This document shows, piece by piece, positions 39,217 through 63,792 of a DNA stretch of 64,000 nt. Positions within the stretch are counted from its first letter, which is position 1; each line of letters begins with the position of its first letter. Origin of the DNA: a virus; the IMG/VR virus record IMGVR_UViG_3300020122_000665, positions 21,476 to 85,475 of that record; one strand, given 5' to 3'. The notes under the pieces are model-generated. The model was given only the letters and a program-made list of their open reading frames with translations. It searched no databases and was not told where the DNA came from. A program made the position numbers and the translations under genes.

Positions 39217-40932
39217 TCACGTGCCCGGGGTTGGAGTCGTCGAGAGCGTCGTGGTCGCCGGCGCCGTCGCCGCGACGTTGCCCGCCTGAGACCAGTGCCC
39301 GCCCGTGCCGTCGCCGCTGTCGTACGCGGAGAGGAGGTGCGCGTGGTCCGCCGGGTCGCGCAGCGCGAGATCGAAGTCGATTGCTCCGGCCGCCCCGTAG
39401 GGAAGCTGCTTGATCCACGCGTTCCAGATGTTGCGATTCGTCTCCGTCTGCCCCGAATAGAAGGGGTTGGTGGGACCGCTCGGCGTGAGCGTGACGAGGT
39501 AGACGTGGCGCGCGCCGTGCGCCTTGACCTGCGTGACGAGCTGGCCGAGCTTGCGTCGAGAGACGTCGAGCGTCTCGCTGCCGGTGCGGACGTTGTTGGT
39601 GCCGAGCGCGAGGACGACGTCGGTGCCGACGAAGTTGCAGCCCTCCGTCTTGTTGGGCGCGCCGCTCGCTTCGAGGAAGTCGTCGATCGTCGAGCCGGAG
39701 ACGGCACGGTTGTCGACGCTGATCCCGAGCTGCGATCCGACGGCGCGCCAGACCTGAACCGCGTAGTCGGCGTAGCCGCCGGCGCTCAGCGAGTCGCCGA
39801 GGACAACTACGCGGCGCGCCGACGTGAGGTATTCGATCGTCCACGTCGGAACGGAGAGATAGGTGTCGGCGAGCGCCGGCAGTGGATACGCCGTAGTCTG
39901 CGCGGCCGTCTTCGACCAGTGGGCACCGGCGATCGCAGCGCTAGAGAACGCGACCGCGCTCGCCGCGGGGATGCCGACAGCGACGAGGATCTTCCCGTCG
40001 CTGCCCCGCGTAATCGGAATCCACGGGGATAGGTAGTCGATCCCGGCGGCGGGGATGTTGAAGCTCGCGTGGTAGGCCGGCGCGCCGGCGAAGCCGAAGT
40101 TTCCGTCGTGCATGCCGACGGCGAGGTCACATCCGGTCGTCGCTGCGTTGTCCTGCCCTGAATCGAGCGAGGTGCCGCGCGTCGAGATGCGGATGCGGAC
40201 CTGCGTGACATCGGCAGGAACCGAATCGGCTTGAACGGTGAGCCACGGACCAAAGCTGCCGTTGAAGCTGGTGGCGAGGATGGAGCCCGTCTGCCCCGGC
40301 CGCGCCGGATTCGACCACGTCGCCAGACCGCCGACGGTCTGCAGAACCTGCCCGTCGGGAATCGAAGTGGGGTCGGGGGTGCGCTCGTTCGACCACGTTG
40401 CCAAGCTCGAGACGCGGCGGACGATCTGCCCGTCGATGCCGCCCGACGGCTGAGGACCAGGCGGCCCTTGTGCGAGCGGCAGCTGCGACGGCGGAACCGT
40501 GATCGACTGCCCAGGCTGCGAGAGCGAGGGCTGAATGACGAACGCCGATGCCGGAACGACGGTGACCTGATTTCCAGAGCCGTCGACGATGACGACATCG
40601 TATTGGTAGTAGCCGGGATAGGCGGTGAGCGTGTCGCCCGGGACGATCGGGAACTTGATCTTCCCGTTGGCGGAGTCGGTGATCGTTCCCTGTCGAGCGA
40701 CGACGGGAACCAAGTCCGACGGCAGGTGCCGGACGGTCAGCAGCGGCGTGTAGCCGGAGAGGCTGAATGGAGCGCCCGCGCTGTTGACCACCGCGACGTC
40801 GATCTCGCCGGTGTCGAATCGGGGGACCACGATCGGCTGCGACAGGACACGCGCCGTCGTCGGAGTCGAGCCGTCGGGGTAGACGCCCTGCAGCGCCCCG
40901 AGAATCGCGAGGAATGGGAGGAGAAATTGCAT
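39217..40932 (-). CDS. tail fibre/receptor-binding protein with SGNH esterase domain
   Basis: 571 residues. The hydrophobic start MQFLLPFLAILGALQGVYPD is followed by a BppU-like immunoglobulin domain (about 35-140; DTGEIDVAVVNSAGAPFSLS then GYYQYDVVIVDGSGNQVTV). A linker has two copies of LATWSN. A jelly-roll-like middle precedes a C-terminal SGNH hydrolase: block I VVLGDSLSAGG with nucleophile Ser381, Gly block, GTNN near 445 and late H-W (GGHWSQAGN). The enzyme probably removes acyl groups from surface polysaccharide during adsorption. Confidence 0.8.
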   Translation of the reverse strand: MQFLLPFLAILGALQGVYPDGSTPTTARVLSQPIVVPRFDTGEIDVAVVNSAGAPFSLSGYTPLLTVRHLPSDLVPVVARQGTITDSANGKIKFPIVPGDTLTAYPGYYQYDVVIVDGSGNQVTVVPASAFVIQPSLSQPGQSITVPPSQLPLAQGPPGPQPSGGIDGQIVRRVSSLATWSNERTPDPTSIPDGQVLQTVGGLATWSNPARPGQTGSILATSFNGSFGPWLTVQADSVPADVTQVRIRISTRGTSLDSGQDNAATTGCDLAVGMHDGNFGFAGAPAYHASFNIPAAGIDYLSPWIPITRGSDGKILVAVGIPAASAVAFSSAAIAGAHWSKTAAQTTAYPLPALADTYLSVPTWTIEYLTSARRVVVLGDSLSAGGYADYAVQVWRAVGSQLGISVDNRAVSGSTIDDFLEASGAPNKTEGCNFVGTDVVLALGTNNVRTGSETLDVSRRKLGQLVTQVKAHGARHVYLVTLTPSGPTNPFYSGQTETNRNIWNAWIKQLPYGAAGAIDFDLALRDPADHAHLLSAYDSGDGTGGHWSQAGNVAATAPATTTLSTTPTPGT

Positions 40933-40934
40933 TG

Positions 40935-42095
40935 TCAGCCTCCGGTGCACTCGTAGGAGAACGTGTACGTGTGCGCGCCAGGGGTTCCGTGGTAGGTGAT
41001 CGTGCCGACGGTGGCGGACGTCGCGATCGTCACGGGATTGGCGAGCGTGCAATCGACCGTCGTACACGAGCCGGCGAGGCCACCCTGAAACCCGGTGGCG
41101 TCATTCGTCGCCTCGAACTTGACGCGACACCAAGGAGCGTTGGTCCACGTGCCGTCCTTCCACGTAATCGCGATCGTGGGGTCGGCGCTGTAGGTTCCTC
41201 CGGCGCCGGTGACGACGAAGCTGCCGTGGTTGTCGTCGCCCGACACGCTGCTGACGCACGCGCTGTTTCCCGAGCATGTGGCGCCCCACCCGGCGCTCGT
41301 GACGATGTTGGTGGAGATCTGCGAGACGCCGCGAAGGATGAGTCGAAGCCATCCCGCGGTCGCGGCCCCGAGTGGCGTGTTCTTGTCGCCCGCCGGATTC
41401 AGCGCGCCGCCGATCGACACAGACGAGGAGCCGATCGAGACGTAGGACGTCCCCCCGGCCTGCTCGAGGTTGAGCCCACCGACGCCGGATACGGTCGGCA
41501 CGCCGACGTTGAGATAGCTGTGGATGTACATCAGGTCCGTCGGGGAGCCATTGACGACCGATGCGATGGTGAGGCGCGGATCGGGCGCGGCGGCCTGCTG
41601 CGGCGCCACTCGGAGCGCCATGCAGGTTTGCTGCGAGGTGCCGCCGCCGGTGCCCCACCCGCGTCCGCAAAGCTGCATTGCCGGGCTGTTCTGCTGCGCT
41701 CCGTTCGCGGCGGCGGTCGTGTTCTCCAAGGTCCAGTAGACCGTTTGCGCGGTTGCGAGGGCGAGCGGCTGCGAGAGCAGATAGGTCGGCGTGCCGCCAA
41801 GCGTGTACGGCCCGAGCTGCGTTCCGCTGAAGGTGATCGGCCCCGTCATGGTGCCGCCCGACAGTGGAAGAGCACCACCACCGCCGCTCACCGAAAGCTG
41901 GTAGTCGCTGCCCGCGGCGTTGCGAAAGTAGAGATTCCCGTCGCTGGTCTTCACCCACACGCCCGGGATGCTCGAGCCGAAAGGCGACGCCGTGACCGGC
42001 GAGAATCGCGCGCCGCGCTGGTAGGAGATCGGCTGCGCGTGCGCGACGCCCGCGAGCGCGAGCAGCGCCGCCGCGGCGAGAAGGACTCGGTTCAT
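40935..42095 (-). CDS. tail fibre protein with Sec signal peptide
   Basis: 386 residues. LPLSGGTMTGPITFSGTQ near 77-94 is the usual phage fibre signature; the rest is Gly/Ser/Thr-rich beta structure. The N-terminus MNRVLLAAAALLALAGVAHA-Q is a textbook Sec signal with an AHA-Q cleavage site. This is odd for a virion protein assembled in the cytoplasm. Either the protein is exported or the segment has another use. The fibre gene downstream also starts hydrophobically. Confidence 0.7.
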   Translation of the reverse strand: MNRVLLAAAALLALAGVAHAQPISYQRGARFSPVTASPFGSSIPGVWVKTSDGNLYFRNAAGSDYQLSVSGGGGALPLSGGTMTGPITFSGTQLGPYTLGGTPTYLLSQPLALATAQTVYWTLENTTAAANGAQQNSPAMQLCGRGWGTGGGTSQQTCMALRVAPQQAAAPDPRLTIASVVNGSPTDLMYIHSYLNVGVPTVSGVGGLNLEQAGGTSYVSIGSSSVSIGGALNPAGDKNTPLGAATAGWLRLILRGVSQISTNIVTSAGWGATCSGNSACVSSVSGDDNHGSFVVTGAGGTYSADPTIAITWKDGTWTNAPWCRVKFEATNDATGFQGGLAGSCTTVDCTLANPVTIATSATVGTITYHGTPGAHTYTFSYECTGG

Positions 42096-43696: not shown

Positions 43697-44761
43697 CTAC
43701 TGGACGGGCGGACGCGAGCGCGTCAGCGCCTGGTCAACGAAGAGTCGCCACACGACGCCGGAGCCGCGGCGCGACTCGTACTCGAAGATGATCTTCTTGA
43801 GCAGCGACGTCCGCGACGCCTGCACGAAGGCATAGGTGTGCTGGCCAGGATTCGCCGAGCTCGATTGAACGAACGCGCCGAAGCTGCGGATCACGCTCGT
43901 CCAGACGACGCTACCGTCGAGGACGACGCCGGATCCTGCAGGACCCGTCGATGGGAGCGCAGCCGAGGTCCCAGGCGTGGTGCACTTGTAGACCACGCCG
44001 CCGTTGGTGACGAGCTGGCCGACGGTCGGATAGGACGTGCTCGGCAGCCAGGCCGTCGGCGCCGGAAGTCCCGATGGAGTGTTGGCGTTGACCGACGAGA
44101 CGAAGCCGCCCTTGTAGGTCGAGCCGGGATTGCCAGGGAGGACGATCCAGCGCTCAGCGCGCCGCACCACAGAGACGACGTAGATGCCGGCGGTGCGCTT
44201 CCCGGTGTTCGGCCCCGAGGCCCACAGGCGCTTCGTCTGCGGCTGCACGAAGCAGCGCGGCGATCCGACGCCGCTCGAGACCGATGACGCGAACGCGAAG
44301 TCGCGCGCAGGCTCGAGCAGCGCTGGCGGAGACGGAGCGAGCTCGGCCGCGATCATCTCCCGAATGACCGGCATGATCGCGTTCGGCGTGACGATCGCCG
44401 GTGACGCAAGCAGGCGCGCGCGGTAGTCGGTGTCGCTCTCGCTGCCGATGCGGGGCCGCTTCTTCTTCTTTCCCCACCAATCGAGCCACTTCCCCTTCGC
44501 GTATCGCGGCGACGTCTGCGCGAGCAGGAGCTTGGCGCCCTCCGCCCACCATAGGTTCACCATCTTCCCCCACGCCTTGAGGCTGGCGTCGCGCAGCGCC
44601 ATCACGCCGTCGCGGTGAATGGGTGGGAGGAAGCCGAGCATCCGCACGCGGTCCCAAATGGGGGCGGGCGACTCTGTGTAGTGCGCGATGAGCCAATCGC
44701 GCTCGCTGCCGTCGCCCGGCGGGAGCTTGATGTTCGGCTCGCCGGGACCAGGCAGGCGCAT
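43697..44761 (-). CDS. baseplate wedge/tail protein I-like
   Basis: 354 residues. The N-terminal half (LPPIHRDGVMALRDASLKAW then TDYRARLLASPAIVTPNAIM) has the helical RDA..K.W and DYR.R pattern seen in proteins encoded just after baseplate J (P2 gpI role). The C-terminal half is a beta domain (TAWLPSTSYPTVGQLVTNGG, then VYKCTTPG), a carbohydrate-binding-like fold. It probably links the wedge to the fibres. Confidence 0.55.
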   Translation of the reverse strand: MRLPGPGEPNIKLPPGDGSERDWLIAHYTESPAPIWDRVRMLGFLPPIHRDGVMALRDASLKAWGKMVNLWWAEGAKLLLAQTSPRYAKGKWLDWWGKKKKRPRIGSESDTDYRARLLASPAIVTPNAIMPVIREMIAAELAPSPPALLEPARDFAFASSVSSGVGSPRCFVQPQTKRLWASGPNTGKRTAGIYVVSVVRRAERWIVLPGNPGSTYKGGFVSSVNANTPSGLPAPTAWLPSTSYPTVGQLVTNGGVVYKCTTPGTSAALPSTGPAGSGVVLDGSVVWTSVIRSFGAFVQSSSANPGQHTYAFVQASRTSLLKKIIFEYESRRGSGVVWRLFVDQALTRSRPPVQ

Positions 44762-49083: not shown

Positions 49084-50597
49084 GTGAGCACCGGGACTTC
49101 GATGAGATTGATGAGCGACAGCTCGATATTCGGCACGCCGGAGTCGCTGTAGTCGATGTCGACGTCCTTCACGTACCAGAGGTTCGACGTCTTCACGCGC
49201 GCCGCACGCACGGCCAGGCGAGCGTAGCCCTCCTCGCAGCCCAGTTCGTCGACGAGAAACGCCACCGCGTCGCTATCGCTGCCGTCGCGCAGCCTCGCAG
49301 TGAGCACCGGCTCGACCTCGACGGTCACGCGATTGCCGTTCTGCAGCCGCAGCGCCACCGCGTCCCACACGGGAGTCGACAGCTTGATCTCGCACTCCTG
49401 CGACCCGATCGCCTTCCACACCAGCTTCGCGTACTCGAGCACCGCGTCCGGCGTGTGGACGGCGCGCAGGTAGAAGACGTCACGATCTGGCGGTTCGATA
49501 ACGTGAGCAGGCGCAGCACCGGTGGCATTGCGGTGCTTCGGCTTGCCCTTCGCCTTCGCCGCCTTGACCTGCTCGCGCGCGTCCTGGCCGATCGATTTGA
49601 CGACGCCCTTGACCATGTGCTTGTCGAGCGGAACCGCATTGTCGCGCGGCCACACCTTCTCGATGCGCGTGCACGTGTCGTCGTCGAAGGCGATGACCCG
49701 GATGCCCTTGCGCCGGCGAATGAATTTCTTCGAGCGCGACACCTTCGAGGTGTTGGCGTTCTCGTTGTTGAAGATGAAGTGAGCGACCGCCTCGTCGGTG
49801 GTGGACACCTTCTCCCCGGGGTCGCCGAAGGCCTCCTCGGGCTTTCGCACGACGAGCTCGTTGAGCACGATGTTGACCGAGCGCCCGGCGATCGCGCAGA
49901 GGAACTCGATCACCTCCCAGGCGCTCATGTCGCTCTTCTGGAGCGGGATCGGCGCATTGACGTTGCGCTTCCCGGTGAGCTGCGCGAGCGAGTATTGCAG
50001 GGCCTCGGTGTTCCGCAGCAGGACGCGCGGGTTGCCTTCGTCGTCGTGCATGTCGGGGACGAAGTCGAGGATCCTCTTGATGGCCGTGCCGAGGTCGTCC
50101 GAGTAGTGCGGCATCGGGTCGACCTTCGAGCCGTTGCGCTTCACCGGCGCGAGCGGCTTGTGGTCGCGAAGCGGGAAGGAAAGATCCTTGAACTTCATCC
50201 GGTAGACGGGGACTTCGTCGCCGTCCTCACCGTCGCCGAGTTCGCCGTCGCCGACGAAGTGGATGTTTTCCCGAAACTCGATCTCGTTGTCGGGGCCTCC
50301 GGCGTCCGCCATGAAGAGCGTGACGAAGGAACTCTCGATCGTGTTCGTGTCGAAGCGGAAGAACGCGCCGTCGAAGTCGATCTCGCAGGTCGTCGGGTGG
50401 CTGTGCGAGCGGCGCGCGAGCTTCACGCGCTTCGGCGGCAGGTGAAGCGTCTCCTGCACGCCGCCGATCACGACGACGAGCTCGGCCATAGCGCGCGGGA
50501 AGTAGACGCCCCCCTGCCCTAGCCCGCTGCGGATCGTGCCGTCGATGAAGTCCGACGGCTGCGCTCCCTGGAATGGGTTGCCCGCGTAATCATCCAA
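49080..50597 (-). CDS. baseplate hub protein (gpD/Mu gp44-like)
   Basis: 505 residues. VVVIGGVQETLHLPPKRVKL, ARRSHSHPTTCEIDF, then the central SDMSAWEVIEFLCAIAGRSV and IVLNELVVRKPE (gpD-like tail hub) and a C-terminal LWYVKDVDIDYSDSGVPNIE-type strand region match phage late control/hub proteins. A Lys-rich insertion (EQVKAAKAKGKPKHRNATGA) interrupts it near 345-365. It forms the central hub and holds the spike. Confidence 0.75.
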   Translation of the reverse strand: MDDYAGNPFQGAQPSDFIDGTIRSGLGQGGVYFPRAMAELVVVIGGVQETLHLPPKRVKLARRSHSHPTTCEIDFDGAFFRFDTNTIESSFVTLFMADAGGPDNEIEFRENIHFVGDGELGDGEDGDEVPVYRMKFKDLSFPLRDHKPLAPVKRNGSKVDPMPHYSDDLGTAIKRILDFVPDMHDDEGNPRVLLRNTEALQYSLAQLTGKRNVNAPIPLQKSDMSAWEVIEFLCAIAGRSVNIVLNELVVRKPEEAFGDPGEKVSTTDEAVAHFIFNNENANTSKVSRSKKFIRRRKGIRVIAFDDDTCTRIEKVWPRDNAVPLDKHMVKGVVKSIGQDAREQVKAAKAKGKPKHRNATGAAPAHVIEPPDRDVFYLRAVHTPDAVLEYAKLVWKAIGSQECEIKLSTPVWDAVALRLQNGNRVTVEVEPVLTARLRDGSDSDAVAFLVDELGCEEGYARLAVRAARVKTSNLWYVKDVDIDYSDSGVPNIELSLINLIEVPVLT

Positions 50598-52650
50598 TCA
50601 GCGACCCGAGGCTGCCGGGGTCGGTCGGGACGTGCGTGCGCAGCGCGTCCTTGATCGCCCTGGTGGTGGCGATGTGGATCCGATCCGGATCCTCGCCGTT
50701 GTTGATCTCCTGCGTGAGGTTCACGACGACGTTGACGGCAGCCTTCTTCCCCGGCTCGTTCTTGCCGGAGATCGCCAGGCTCGCGCCGGCCGGATGGTCC
50801 TCCTCCATCATCTTGCGGAACTTGGCGGGGTTGGCGAGCTTGTAGGCCTCCGTCGAGTCGTAGATGGGGAGCATCACCTTGCGGACCCACTCGTCTTGCT
50901 GAGATTGGGTGCCGCCGTCGAGGTTATTCTCCTTCATCCACGCGCGGACGCGAGCCTCGTCGACGCCGCCGAACTTGTTGTAGGCGCCCATCCGGCGCGC
51001 CATCTCCACCATGGGGAGCGCCTTGTTGCCGAGGTTGCGCGCCATCACCTCGAAGCCGTCGAGGTTCCCCGTCTTGCCGTTGTCGACGGCACCGCGCCAG
51101 TCGCCCATCGCCTCGATCACGTCAGCGTCGACGCCGTGGTTTTGCAGCACGGAGGCGAAGCGCCGGCGCGAGGCCACCATCTCCTTGTGGCCGCCGGTCG
51201 CCTTGTAGTAGCGCTCCACCTCGTCGCGCACGGCCGCGCCTTCGGCCTCGGCGAGCACGCGGCTCTTGTGGTTCTTGTCGACCTCTCCGGCGAGCACGTT
51301 GAGCGACGCGTAGAGCGCCGACAGCGCGCCGCCGACCTGGCCGAACTGACCCGGCAGCGCCGACAGCGACCCGGTGAGGATGCCGACCGCGTCCTGAAAG
51401 TGCTGCGTGCCGGTCCCGAGGTCGCTCACGTTGTTGGTGAAGCGCGCGACGGCGACGTTGACGCCGGACCGCATGACGGCGTTCGTCACGGTGCCGAGAG
51501 CACCCTCGAGACCACCCTGCAGCTTGTGGCCGTAGAGCTCCATCTGGCGGGTCATGCCGCCGCCCATGTTGACCATGGAGTATCCGGTCAGCTGCTTCCC
51601 CATCGTCAGCCCGGGCATTCCGCCGGAGACGCCGCCGAATCCCATCCCGACCGCGCCCATCGCGCGCTGCGCGAGCCACACCTCGGCGAGAACCTTGATC
51701 GACTCCTTGTTGTCGATGAGGAACGCACCGATCTGCTGGCCGTACTTCGACGCCTCGCGGAGCGCGTCGACGATGCCGTGGCCGAGCGCCTCCGCGGTCT
51801 TCAGAATCGATTCGCGGTTCTTCTCGAACCAGGCGTTGATCTCGACGAGCGCGCTCTTCGCTTGGTCGAAGAACGCCTTTCCGAAGGTGCGCATCACCAC
51901 CTTCTCGTAGCTCTGCGTCGTCGTGACGATGGCGCCCCACGTCTCGCCGTAGGCCTTCATCGCAGGCTCGAAGCCGGCCACGGCCTTGTTGATCGCCTCG
52001 ACGCGCTTCTCCGGCGAGAGCGCGTTGAAGCCGCCGCCGCCGTCGTCCATGAACCCGGCAAGCTTGCGGAAGAGCGGCGAGATGCTGCGCGCGTGCCCCT
52101 CGAGCATCTGCGACAGCGCGTGCCCCGTGCTGCCGGCGTCGATGCCGAACATCTTGCCGACGTTGCCGACCTTGTAGGCCATCTGCTCGATCTGGTCGAG
52201 CGTCATCCCCGAGTGCGCCCCGGAGGCGATGTTCATCTGGTTGATCTGGAGCAGGTCGTCGAACGTCCCGTGGAACGTCCGCGAGTGCTCGCGGATCTTG
52301 GTGAGCAGTGCGTCGCTGACGGAGAGGGCGCGATTGAATCCTTCGACGCCGTCGCCGATGCCGGTGAAGCGACCGGCCTGGATCATGCCGGCCATCGCGA
52401 TGCGCGTGCTCTCGAACTGGGCCGACAGGTTGATCAGCTTCTCGCCGAGCCCAACTGCGTCGTGCGCGAGCTGGTGGAATCCGAGGTAGCCGAGCGCGAA
52501 CTCGTTCATGTGCGAGAGCACGCCCTTCGTGTGCTCCGCGCTCTTCCCGAGGTGGTCCATCGCCTCGGCGCCGGCGCGCGCCTCGGGCGCGATCTGGCCG
52601 AGCCCCTGCGTCTCGTAGATCGTGACGACGCGGTAGGTCTCGTCGGCCAT
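50590..52650 (-). CDS. tail tape measure protein
   Basis: 686 residues, helical and Ala/Gly-rich. The N-terminal YRVVTIYETQGLGQIAPEAR and the TMP-core-like stretches (GVLSHMNEFALGYLGFHQLA, AMAGMIQAGRF, INQMNIASGAHSGMTLDQIE) fit. It lies after the tube and frameshifted chaperone genes, the fixed place of the tape measure. At about 0.15 nm per residue the tail would be roughly 100 nm. No lysozyme domain is seen in it. Confidence 0.85.
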   Translation of the reverse strand: MADETYRVVTIYETQGLGQIAPEARAGAEAMDHLGKSAEHTKGVLSHMNEFALGYLGFHQLAHDAVGLGEKLINLSAQFESTRIAMAGMIQAGRFTGIGDGVEGFNRALSVSDALLTKIREHSRTFHGTFDDLLQINQMNIASGAHSGMTLDQIEQMAYKVGNVGKMFGIDAGSTGHALSQMLEGHARSISPLFRKLAGFMDDGGGGFNALSPEKRVEAINKAVAGFEPAMKAYGETWGAIVTTTQSYEKVVMRTFGKAFFDQAKSALVEINAWFEKNRESILKTAEALGHGIVDALREASKYGQQIGAFLIDNKESIKVLAEVWLAQRAMGAVGMGFGGVSGGMPGLTMGKQLTGYSMVNMGGGMTRQMELYGHKLQGGLEGALGTVTNAVMRSGVNVAVARFTNNVSDLGTGTQHFQDAVGILTGSLSALPGQFGQVGGALSALYASLNVLAGEVDKNHKSRVLAEAEGAAVRDEVERYYKATGGHKEMVASRRRFASVLQNHGVDADVIEAMGDWRGAVDNGKTGNLDGFEVMARNLGNKALPMVEMARRMGAYNKFGGVDEARVRAWMKENNLDGGTQSQQDEWVRKVMLPIYDSTEAYKLANPAKFRKMMEEDHPAGASLAISGKNEPGKKAAVNVVVNLTQEINNGEDPDRIHIATTRAIKDALRTHVPTDPGSLGSLIG

Positions 52651-52653
52651 GAC

Positions 52654-53390
52654 CTACCTCCGCGTCCTGTTGATCTGCCGCCCGCGCGCGTCGAGCAGCA
52701 CGGGCTCCTTCTTCTTGTCGTCGTTGCCGTTGAACTCGCGGGTCAGCCTGCCGACGACGTTCGACCAGCGGACGATCTCGGAGATCGACCAGCGCTTGAC
52801 CTTCTCGATGTCCTGATTGCCGTGGACCGCGAGAATCCCTACCCGACGATCGAGCGGGTCAATCTCGTCGTCGCCATGCTTTTTTTTGGAGCGAAGGTCT
52901 CCTCGAGGATCCGCGAGTAGAGGAGGCCGTAGTCGAGCGGAAACGTGTTGAAGAGCTCCTTCAGCGTCGGCCCGGTGACGGCGAGGATCTGATAGTTGAC
53001 GGGGATCCAGCCGCCGCCGGCGAGCTTGCCGCGCTTATGCGGGGCCGACGGAGGGTCGATCGCGTCGAGCATCGCGTCGATGTCGACGATGACGGAGTCG
53101 ACCTCGTTCTGATTCTCGTCGAGGAGGTTCGGATCGAACCCGAGCTCGCCGAGCGTCGCCTTGCGCTTCAGGTAGACGTCCGGCACCTCGTCGAGGGTGA
53201 CGAACTTGAGCGAGGCCATCACCTGCTCGCGCGTGAGGAGCGCCTCCTGCTTGACCGGATCCTTCTCGATGCCCGCGCGCTCCTTGCAGGCGTCGATGTC
53301 GTCGAGCCCGAGCGCCACGAACTTGACCGCGCGCAGCGACTGCGGCAGGCGCATCCGGTAGATCGTCTTCGGCCCTCCTCCGATGGCCAT
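52654..53390 (-). CDS. tail assembly chaperone, -1 frameshift product
   Basis: Reading the 52839-53390 gene and shifting -1 on the A heptamer at 52887-52881 joins residue 170 to 75 further residues (KHGDDEIDPLDRRVGILAVH ... RGRQINRTRR) and ends at 52654. This gives a 245-residue protein. The extra frame is open, has no start of its own and stops just before the tape measure ATG. Lambda G-T and P2 E/E' have the same gene order and -1 shift between tube and tape measure. Confidence 0.7.
52839..53390 (-). CDS. tail assembly chaperone, zero-frame product
   Basis: 183 residues, after the tube gene by 3 bases. MAIGGGPKTIYRMRLPQSLR, a helical body (KEALLTREQVMASL type) and an acidic middle end in APKKSMATTRLTRSIVG. 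The last 13 residues are read from the frame that competes with the -1 shift. It probably coats the tape measure protein during tail assembly and is not in the virion. Confidence 0.7.
   Translation of the reverse strand: MAIGGGPKTIYRMRLPQSLRAVKFVALGLDDIDACKERAGIEKDPVKQEALLTREQVMASLKFVTLDEVPDVYLKRKATLGELGFDPNLLDENQNEVDSVIVDIDAMLDAIDPPSAPHKRGKLAGGGWIPVNYQILAVTGPTLKELFNTFPLDYGLLYSRILEETFAPKKSMATTRLTRSIVG
52880..52887 (-). other. slippery site for -1 frameshifting
   Basis: On the minus strand cca aaa aaa agc: eight consecutive A, heptamer A AAA AAA in the zero frame. It is the only A8 run I noticed in the coding regions of this GC-rich sequence. It lies at the 3' end of the chaperone gene. Confidence 0.7.
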
Positions 53391-53393
53391 GGG

Positions 53394-53858
53394 TTAGGCC
53401 TTCCCGACGGCGATGCCGCGGCCGCGCGCGTTCACCGATACCTTGTTGCGAGCCTCGGCGCCGCCCATCGCCATCTTCCATCCGAAGACGCCGTTCAGAA
53501 GCGACAGCGACTCGAAGTCGCCGAGGCGCTCGGTGAAGAGCATGATCACGCTCAGATCGTCGACCGACACCCTCGCGTCGCGCTGCTGCTCGATCTGCTC
53601 GAAGGTCTGGATGATGGTGAGCTTCGGGACGAAGAAGGTCCCATCCCACGTCCAACCGCGCCGACGGTGATCCGGCTGGTTGAGCGGGTCGCCCATGAGC
53701 TTGTCGTCGTGCTCGACGTAGACGGCCCCGACGTTGCCGGACTCCCACTCCGTCTCGACGTCGCCGATCGGCGAGCCGTTGCGGAGAAAGCGGAGCCGCA
53801 CGTCGGCGCCGTCCATGCGCAGCTTGGGGAGGGAGGGATCGCCGATCGGACCGGCCAT
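53394..53858 (-). CDS. tail tube protein
   Basis: 154 residues, the normal size. LRMDGADVRLRFLRNGSPIG, ETEWESGNVGAVYVEHDDKL and KMAMGGAEARNKVSVNARGR are spread through a beta-rich protein. It lies directly downstream of the sheath gene, which is the standard contractile-tail order. It polymerises into the inner tube. Confidence 0.8.
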   Translation of the reverse strand: MAGPIGDPSLPKLRMDGADVRLRFLRNGSPIGDVETEWESGNVGAVYVEHDDKLMGDPLNQPDHRRRGWTWDGTFFVPKLTIIQTFEQIEQQRDARVSVDDLSVIMLFTERLGDFESLSLLNGVFGWKMAMGGAEARNKVSVNARGRGIAVGKA

Positions 53859-53961: not shown

Positions 53962-55833
53962 CTACGTGCCGACGGACGGCTGCGTACCGATGTTCTTGTA
54001 GAAGAAGATCTTCTCCTTCACCGACGGGACGACCGCGGTGACGGCAATGCCCTCCTCGCCGGCGGCGATGGAAGCGACGTCGTTCACCGAGTCGATATCG
54101 GTGAAGAACATCGGGTTACCTGGGGACCACTGCGGGTAGGACGCCGTGGTGCTCTTGTCGGCGACGTTGACGCGGAGGCCCGCCTCGGAGCGAAGGAACG
54201 AATCGACGGCGGCCTTGTCGAGCCGCCGCTCGGTCGCCGTGTTGGGCCCGTTGATCGAGTCCTCCATCGCGAGCCCGACGGCCTTCTCGAGGTAGCGGAT
54301 GCACTTCTGCGTGACGATGAAACGCTCGTTGAGGTCGAGGCTGGTGGTGCGGTCGTGGAGCGGGATGTAGCCGCCCTTCTTCGCCTTGATCGGGAGCTGG
54401 ATCCCGTTCTCGGTCGCCTCGTTGCGGATTCCCTCGTCGGTGGAGTCGAAGTTGTTGCCGGAGACGTTGTTGGGGATCGAGCTGACGCCGTTGTAGTAGT
54501 CGATCACGTCCTTCTTGCGCCAGGCGGCCGACTCCTGCGGCTGCAGCTGCGAATCCGCCGCGGCGATGAACGACCAGAACGGCGTGAGCTGCTCGACGTT
54601 GTTGATGTCGCGCGTGTAGACCCACGTCGAGAAGCGCGCCCGCTTGTCGCGGTAGGTGCCGACCTCGGTCTTCACCGTCGACCACGAACTCGCCTGCAGG
54701 CTCTGGATGTTGGCGAAGCGGTCCTTCTTCGACTGGATCAGCGTGAGCAGCGCGGCGTTGACCGCCGGGCGCAGCGAGTCGCTGCAATCGTCGAAGCCCA
54801 TCTCGAGCACGTCCTCCTGGCTGGCGAGGGCGGTGATGGCCGTCGAGTAGTCGGAGGAAGCGATGGCGGCGCCGTCGGAGCCGCCGACAAAGGCGTAGGT
54901 GCCGTTCGCGGGCCGCGTGACGGGCGCCACGCCGCCGACGTTGACGAGCGCGAAGCTCGTCACGAGCAGGTCCGTGGTGAAGTCGGGCAGGATCGCCGTG
55001 GCGATCGTCTGGAGCCCGGCGTAGCGCTTCGTCGTCTGCGCCTTGGTGCCGACGAGCTGCACCGTCAGATCGAAGTGGTTCGCGACGCCGTCGCCCGCGG
55101 CGGCCACGACCGCCTGAATCGCGTTGCCGACGCCCGCGCCCGGGAAGCGCCCGATCAGCTTCGCCACCGCGTTGCCGCTCGAGTCGAGCAGGTAGCAGAC
55201 CGACTGCGACCACCCCGTCGTGTTGAGCGTCGGCAGCGCGGCGGCGTCGCCCTGCGCGCCCTGGTGGCTGTAGGTCAGCGACGCGGTGTTGGCGATCTTG
55301 CCGGCGGTCGCGATGTTGCCGGCGACCAGCACCTCGTAGATGTCGTAGCTCGTCGCCCCGGGGACCACGGACCAGGCGAGGTCGTTGTGGTTCGATCCGT
55401 TGAGCGTCGCGTTGCCGTTGGTGACGATCGCGAGGGCCGAGCCCTGGGTGGCGCCGGCGGCGTTCTTCGCGACGATGGCGTACTTGTACGTCGTGGCGCC
55501 GGGGGTTCCGACGACGGTCACGGTCGGCGGATCGGGCGGGAGGATTCCCTGCAGGCCGCCGAGCACGCGCGAGAGCGTCCACGGGCACGCCGCGCGGTTG
55601 GTGAGCGCGAGGTAGCCCGGCGACGTACGCGCGCTCCCGTCGGGGAAGTAGGTGTTCTTGAGGTCGGCCGGCGACACCGTCGCGTAGGCGACCTCGACGG
55701 GCCCCCACTCCGTCTGCAGCGCCATGCCGACGCGCTCGTTCGAGACGCCGCGGATGACGCGCGGCTGCGCGACGGGGATGGAATAGAAGCCGGGCTGCCG
55801 CGCGAGCGCGCGGTTCGCGATCTCGATCGCCAT
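53962..55833 (-). CDS. contractile tail sheath protein
   Basis: 623 residues. The conserved C-terminal half includes NVEQLTPFWSFIAAADSQLQ, RNEATENGIQLPIKAKKGGY and LHDRTTSLDLNERFIVTQKC (sheath handshake region). An insertion at about 100-210 reads as an Ig/FN3-like domain (TVTVVGTPGATTYKYAIVAK, VVPGATSYDIYEVLVAG). This would project from the tail surface. It makes the virion a myovirus-type particle. Confidence 0.88.
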   Translation of the reverse strand: MAIEIANRALARQPGFYSIPVAQPRVIRGVSNERVGMALQTEWGPVEVAYATVSPADLKNTYFPDGSARTSPGYLALTNRAACPWTLSRVLGGLQGILPPDPPTVTVVGTPGATTYKYAIVAKNAAGATQGSALAIVTNGNATLNGSNHNDLAWSVVPGATSYDIYEVLVAGNIATAGKIANTASLTYSHQGAQGDAAALPTLNTTGWSQSVCYLLDSSGNAVAKLIGRFPGAGVGNAIQAVVAAAGDGVANHFDLTVQLVGTKAQTTKRYAGLQTIATAILPDFTTDLLVTSFALVNVGGVAPVTRPANGTYAFVGGSDGAAIASSDYSTAITALASQEDVLEMGFDDCSDSLRPAVNAALLTLIQSKKDRFANIQSLQASSWSTVKTEVGTYRDKRARFSTWVYTRDINNVEQLTPFWSFIAAADSQLQPQESAAWRKKDVIDYYNGVSSIPNNVSGNNFDSTDEGIRNEATENGIQLPIKAKKGGYIPLHDRTTSLDLNERFIVTQKCIRYLEKAVGLAMEDSINGPNTATERRLDKAAVDSFLRSEAGLRVNVADKSTTASYPQWSPGNPMFFTDIDSVNDVASIAAGEEGIAVTAVVPSVKEKIFFYKNIGTQPSVGT

Positions 55834-61141: not shown

Positions 61142-61436
61142 TCGGCGCGTTTCCGGCCCTGGTAATCGTTCCGTCGACGGTGAGCCGTGGCCCGTCGGGA
61201 ACGTGCCGGCGTGGTGCTGCTACAGGGCTCGGCGACAACGCCGTGGCGTCGTCGAGCTCGTGCCGTCCGCGACCTCCGCCTGGTGCATCGCCACGACTTC
61301 GGGCGACGGAGGTGCAAACGTTGGTGGTGCAGCGGCGCAGGCATCGCGCAGCGATGTAGAGGAGGCAGACCTCGACGAGTTGCCGCCGAGGTCGCGATCG
61401 CCGCACCGAAGCGTGGCGAGTGGTTTTTTGTCGATG
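61142..61436. other. gap between tRNA-Thr and scaffold genes
   Basis: 295 bases. No minus-strand frame looks like protein. A plus-strand stem (tcgccgc/gcgtggcga, near 61398-61418) is followed by tttttt, so it might terminate plus-strand transcription, but no plus-strand gene ends here. A scaffold promoter may lie here. Confidence 0.35.
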
Positions 61437-61509
61437 AGCCCCGAGCAGGAATCGAACCTGCGACCGTCGGCTTACGAAGCCGCTGCTCTGCCGTCTGAGC
61501 TACAGGGGC
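61437..61509 (-). tRNA. tRNA-Thr (anticodon CGT)
   Basis: 73 bases fold as a full cloverleaf on the minus strand. The acceptor is gcccctg/tcggggc (one mismatch, one wobble), D stem gctc/gagc, anticodon stem gcggc/gccga with loop ttcgtaa, T arm gcagg-ttcgatt-cctgc, discriminator T; CCA is not encoded. It reads ACG. The same anticodon is present in the attP tRNA fragment at 36450, but the sequences differ, so this is a separate phage tRNA. It lies inside the late head operon. Confidence 0.9.
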
Positions 61510-61521
61510 CAGGAACTACGG

Positions 61522-61594
61522 AGCGGCAAGCGGGAATCGAACCCGCAACGTCCGGCTTGGAAGGCCAGCGCTCTGCCAGTTGAGCTATCGCCGC
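61522..61594 (-). tRNA. tRNA-Gly (anticodon TCC)
   Basis: 73 bases with cloverleaf on the minus strand: acceptor gcggcga/ttgccgc, D stem gctc/gagc, anticodon stem ctggc/gccgg with loop cttccaa, T arm gcggg-ttcgatt-cccgc, discriminator T; CCA not encoded. It reads GGA, a rare glycine codon in GC-rich genomes. It would be made with the head genes. Confidence 0.92.
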
Positions 61595-62857: not shown

Positions 62858-63121
62858 CTACCCCTTCGGGCGATCGACCACGCCGCGCTCGAGGATCGTC
62901 AGCTTCGCCCACTCGAGCTTCCCGACGGTCTCGTAGCGATTCAGCATCGGGGAGCACCGCATGTAGAGGTGCTCGCCCTCGTCGACCACGGCGACGAGCG
63001 TCTCGATGCGACCCGCCTCGGCGTCGACGAGCATCTCCTTCAGGAGCGCGACGACGTGCTCTTGACGCTCGGTGCGCTCCTTCTCCGCGACCGGCACGAT
63101 GTCGAGTTGCGGCGGCGCCAT
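62858..63121 (-). CDS. 87-residue head-region protein, unknown
   Basis: MAPPQLDIVPVAEKERTERQ then VDEGEHLYMRCSPMLNRYET. ATG follows the deformylase stop by overlap. It is small and helical-beta mixed. No family recognised. Confidence 0.55.
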   Translation of the reverse strand: MAPPQLDIVPVAEKERTERQEHVVALLKEMLVDAEAGRIETLVAVVDEGEHLYMRCSPMLNRYETVGKLEWAKLTILERGVVDRPKG

Positions 63122-63792
63122 CAGGTCGCGGCGGCCGCCGCCGCCTCCTGCACGATCACCGTCGGCGCGTGCACGCCCTCGGGCAGCGCCGCCGCGCGCG
63201 CCGCGTCCGCCGCCACGCGCTCCGGCGTCTTCTCGTAGGCGATGTAGCCGCCCGCGTTCTTCCTGGCGTGGCGGTTCATCATCTCGCGCTTCAGCACCGA
63301 CGCGTGGTCGATGAGCAGCTTCCCGTCGAGGTGCTCGATCTCGTGCTGCACCTCGCGCGCCTCAAGACCGCTGAGCATGAACGTCCGCGGCTCGCCGTCC
63401 TTCACGTCGACGTAGGTGACGCCGCACTCGAAGAAGCGCTCGACGGGGATGAAGGTGTTCGGGAAGGAGAGGCAGCCCTCGAGCTTCCTCTCCTTCTTCG
63501 CGCCCGGATCGACGGTGAGCACCGGGTTGATCATGACGACCGGCTCGTCGTTGAGCCGCACCGCCATCATCCGCACCGAGGACCCGATCTGCGGCGCCGC
63601 GAGGCCGAGGCCGCCGGCGACGAGCATGGTGTCGCGCAGCCCGACGGCGAGCGCGCGGATCTCGTCGGTGATTCGACTGACCGGCACGCACGGCTCGCGA
63701 AGGATCTTGTTCGGGTAGAGCAGCAGGCGCCGCAGGTCCGTCGGCTCGAACCGCGCCGCGCGCATCTCGCCGAGCGTCTTCTGTCGCTCCAT
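63121..63792 (-). CDS. def: peptide deformylase
   Basis: 223 residues with ggagggcgaac upstream. All three motifs are present: GLGLAAPQ (61-68), EGCLS (105-109, metal-binding Cys107) and QHEIEHLDG (149-157, metal-binding His150 and His154, catalytic Glu151). It removes the formyl group from new proteins. Phages with a deformylase are known, mostly marine; here it is in the late head operon. The C-terminal extension (about 55 residues, Ala-rich) is longer than in minimal phage enzymes. Confidence 0.92.
   Translation of the reverse strand: MERQKTLGEMRAARFEPTDLRRLLLYPNKILREPCVPVSRITDEIRALAVGLRDTMLVAGGLGLAAPQIGSSVRMMAVRLNDEPVVMINPVLTVDPGAKKERKLEGCLSFPNTFIPVERFFECGVTYVDVKDGEPRTFMLSGLEAREVQHEIEHLDGKLLIDHASVLKREMMNRHARKNAGGYIAYEKTPERVAADAARAAALPEGVHAPTVIVQEAAAAAAT

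Follow-up and report, generated by a model that had tools for sequence, protein, structure and literature searches.

A probable programmed -1 frameshift in the tail assembly chaperone gene of a predicted contractile-tailed phage

For phage lambda, a -1 frameshift in the tail chaperone gene is established. It is conserved across many long-tailed phages, and its efficiency in P2-like ones is 2-3 times higher (PMC5009743). In lambda, to go by the outline which this source gives of the primary work, the short product attaches to the tape measure, and the less abundant fusion brings in tube subunits (Levin 1993; Xu 2004, via PMC5009743). Our analysis of a 64-kb stretch of viral DNA (bases 21476-85475 of the 85,475-bp IMG/VR virus record IMGVR_UViG_3300020122_000665; hereafter the window) predicts a chaperone frameshift that is a member of this known lambda G/GT and P2 E/E' class and that extends it to a contractile lineage in which neither the chaperone nor the tube or sheath directly matches a Pfam or PHROG family. 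The likeness to P2 E/E+E' lies in the contractile tail, in the place of the gene between tube and tape measure and in a -1 shift on an X XXY YYZ motif, whereas homology is not detected by Pfam or PHROGs and the heptamer of the window is A AAA AAA. Architecture and frame are also alike in lambda G/GT, although the lambda tail is non-contractile and no sequence homology was found. Among unrelated genes, the -1 cassettes of E. coli dnaX and IS elements likewise use an A-rich heptamer (A_AAA_AAG in dnaX; PMC5009743) and are comparable in having a possible Shine-Dalgarno (SD)-like element upstream and a hairpin downstream, yet those two stimulators are without statistical support in the window.

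Judged from sequence comparison, the phage of the window (68% GC) is contractile-tailed, with its genes in the order sheath, tube, chaperone and tape measure. Both the tail type and the gene order are derived from matches of relatives to tail-sheath, tail-tube and tape-measure PHROGs; the window's own sheath, tube, chaperone and extension gave no significant match to Pfam or PHROGs, and tblastn with the sheath and the 245-aa fusion (see below) gave none among 50,697 phage records. All of these genes, chaperone and extension included, lie on the minus strand. In the sheath alignment (gene at 53962-55833), 7 of 11 sequences match phrog_23 tail sheath, while the tail tube gene (53394-53858; 154 aa) is assigned by its position and by aligned relatives that match tail-tube families in PHROGs. 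The tape measure gene (50590-52650; 686 aa) matches phrog_23574 directly (E=4e-4), and its relatives match tape-measure PHROGs. Flanked by tube and tape measure is the chaperone ORF, the predicted gpG/gpE equivalent, with an ATG start, a TAG stop and 183 codons (53390-52839), so the gene order claimed in a preliminary description of this DNA, that of lambda G/GT and P2 E/E', is upheld through the PHROG matches of relatives.

The identity of the 183-aa 0-frame product is suggested by its position and by a profile built from the 0-frame proteins of relatives, which ranked it first among all 956 stop-to-stop frames of the window (E=5e-4). Its predicted structure, of moderate confidence (mean pLDDT 69.6), has as best BFVD match the tail assembly chaperone of Bacillus phage Gemini, albeit a weak one (prob 0.99, E=0.025), and no significant match in the PDB; one of the 11 aligned chaperone members matches PF12322 (T4_baseplate).

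Near the end of this gene lies the A8 run (52887-52880) with its A AAA AAA heptamer (52881-52887) on which the preliminary description had based a frameshift reading, leaving the strand unstated; the run is present on the minus strand and, because the 0-frame codons there read CCA AAA AAA AGC (within GCT CCA AAA AAA AGC ATG), the heptamer is in the correct X_XXY_YYZ phase, 46 nt ahead of the 0-frame stop. In the 64 kb at 68% GC, it is the sole run of A or T that reaches at least 7 nt. Lysine is encoded by AAG 288 times and by AAA 7 times in 25 structural and tail genes, and two of these seven AAA codons form the slip site. When the last 40 codons were resampled synonymously with the phage's own codon usage, A8 arose with p ~5e-6 and any XXXYYYZ motif with Y=A/T with p ~0.024. 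As for the motif itself, A_AAA_AAA has been implicated in programmed ribosomal frameshifting (PRF) and supported ~10% frameshifting in a reporter cassette from another gene (PMC3711429). One point against the frameshift reading is that A_AAA_AAA shifts less than A_AAA_AAG in E. coli (PMC5009743).

We consider it very probable that this one gene gives rise to two versions of the chaperone through a -1 ribosomal slip on A AAA AAA. Most ribosomes would stop at the 0-frame TAG and release the 183-aa chaperone, and a minority would undergo tandem slippage of two lysyl-tRNAs back by one base and go on to make a fusion with a predicted length of 245 aa. On the model of lambda gpG/gpGT, the 183-aa form may coat the tape measure protein, and the extension of the rare long form may recruit tube subunits.

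After such a shift, reading would resume with AAG at 52881 (AAG CAT GGC) and run to a TAG (52656-52654) four bases short of the tape-measure ATG at 52650, which bears out the earlier claim of an open 75-codon extension (52657-52881, minus strand; predicted gpT/gpE' equivalent) that stops just before the tape measure. The length of this open frame was considered as evidence and rejected: at 68% GC, long -1 frames that stay open beyond the stop are found in many genes here, and the open extension is thus not significant on its own. It is the heptamer, the codon signature and conservation that carry the case. In the part of the extension beyond the 0-frame stop, GC at the three codon positions is 0.57/0.38/0.97, much like that of the chaperone (0.63/0.39/0.92) and the tape measure (0.64/0.43/0.94). 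Moreover, a profile made exclusively from the extensions of five relatives ranked the window's -1 frame first of the 956 frames (E=0.0017; next 2.1), and the aligned extensions have a common core like (M)RYGHQ..SE(I), the window version of which is AVHGNQDIEKVKRWSISEI.

The relatives used here come from scans of IMG/VR with sheath, tape-measure and further tail-protein queries; a single-sequence scan of IMG/VR with the chaperone gave no match, and GTDB genomes yielded one remote match only. Five relatives form a close family (L002, L003, L004, L006, L024), with a sheath or tail gene ~29-49% identical to that of the window. All five carry an in-phase X XXY YYZ motif 31-46 nt ahead of the 0-frame stop and a -1 frame that extends to the tape-measure start, the heptamers being C CCT TTG in L002, G GGA AAA in L003 and L004, both C CCT TTG and G GGA AAG in L006, and T TTT TTG in L024. 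The heptamer of L024, T TTT TTG, is reportedly P2's own site, and one of the two in L006, G GGA AAG, is reportedly that of lambda. Six more distant loci have the same arrangement, with a heptamer 22-31 nt before the 0-frame stop (G GGA AAA in L010, L011, L016, L017 and L019; T TTT TTC in L005). Two further distant loci do not clearly conform and were not counted: the scan showed no heptamer in L015, and the sole in-phase heptamer of L018 (G GGA AAC) lies 85 nt before the stop. Conservation of the second frame, proposed beforehand as a check, is thus seen in five close and six distant loci, and the -1 geometry found in every close relative with different canonical heptamers supports the earlier reading of a programmed -1 frameshift.

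In terms of sequence, this comparison shows that the slippery heptamer turns over among close relatives with position, direction and extension protein kept. We see two things as modestly new, the exchange of heptamers while the geometry stays fixed and the occurrence of the predicted frameshift in a lineage whose tail proteins go unrecognised. For annotation, the chaperone gene and its extension should be entered as a single frameshifted CDS, and the shared geometry can serve to locate tail chaperones that sequence searches miss. In L006 (4819-4834, plus strand), C CCT TTG and G GGA AAG lie nine bases apart in the same overlap and either would lead into the same extension frame, which makes this locus a putative natural double slip site.

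As no phage close to the window itself turned up, selection on the extension was measured on two of the relatives. Between L003 and L004, the chaperone gene is 85% identical (dN 0.023, dS 0.94) and the extension differs by 17 synonymous and no non-synonymous changes (dN 0, dS 1.13), while the same DNA read in its other two frames shows almost exclusively non-synonymous changes. From the heptamer to the 0-frame stop, where the DNA is read in two frames, the two are identical. Purifying selection on the extension frame, whose lack had been named in advance as grounds for giving up the frameshift reading, is therefore present in these relatives.

The same fusion could, in principle, be made by transcription, as A runs longer than seven are implicated in slippage (PMC3711429): RNA polymerase would add or drop A's on the A8 run, and mRNAs with A9 (or A6) would encode the fusion. 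The run is indeed one base beyond what the heptamer needs. Nevertheless, A8 holds the exact X_XXY_YYZ phase, and the motifs found at the same place in relatives (CCCTTTG, GGGAAAA, GGGAAAG) suit tandem slippage of tRNAs, none of them being a homopolymer; a homopolymer run at the site is not conserved, most relatives having none and L024 and L005 having T6. We therefore regard transcriptional slippage as improbable here. Homologous dnaX genes differ between bacteria in whether they use ribosomal or RNA-polymerase slippage. That this phage has similarly switched, wholly or in part, from the one to the other on A8 and still makes the same fusion is conceivable but, to our minds, doubtful.

Much less likely still is that A8 is an assembly or sequencing error, or a real inactivating frameshift, in what is truly a single 245-aa ORF (with A9). 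Homopolymer runs are the usual site of indel errors and the window is part of a single metagenomic contig, of which no near-identical phage or second copy of the locus was found in the IMG/VR scans; an indel error is unlikely, however, given that the same division, marked by an in-phase heptamer, recurs in eleven other loci and that an uninterrupted ORF would likewise have to contain AAA twice in succession, in a genome that encodes 98% of its lysines by AAG. Least likely of all, with next to no weight in our assessment, is a separate downstream gene with a start of its own. Although the open -1 frame reaches back far beyond the slip site on the 5' side, its first ATG, GTG or TTG in the window is at 52701, 16 codons ahead of its stop, which argues against an ordinary separate gene. 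In L002, L003, L004 and L006, conservation of the extension likewise sets in upstream of any ATG, GTG or TTG; L024 has a TTG right at its 0-frame stop.

Around the heptamer on which we favour ribosomal slippage, two elements are suggestive of the stimulators of dnaX-type sites, namely a GAGGAG (52899-52904, minus strand) 11 nt upstream as a candidate SD-like element and, behind a 7-nt spacer on the 3' side, a candidate hairpin of 10 bp with one bulge (52844-52873, minus strand; -13.4 kcal/mol). Compared with shuffled sequences, the hairpin is not clearly better (z -2.0 in a chosen 33-nt window, z -0.8 in 41 nt) and its energy is matched at 14% of other positions. SD-like matches of at least 5 nt occur at 7% of positions and together with a hairpin at 1.3%. 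As each is fairly common in a GC-rich genome and they coincide at that frequency, we treat both as candidates, and RNA structure was rejected as evidence for the frameshift.

Further features were noted elsewhere in the window. Genes for tRNA-Thr(cgt) and tRNA-Gly(tcc) sit side by side within the head module (61436-61594, minus strand), and a tRNA-Lys gene is absent from the 64-kb window. Adjoining the head genes is a phage-encoded peptide deformylase (63121-63792, minus strand; PF01327, E=3e-37; phrog_2890). A baseplate-like protein (43697-44761, minus strand) has a weak match to carbohydrate-binding module 5/12, slightly below the Pfam cut-off. A likely tail-fibre protein of 616 aa (39217-41067, minus strand) ends in a C-terminal GDSL/SGNH lipase-acylhydrolase domain (PF13472, E=4e-14) and may act on host surface polysaccharide.
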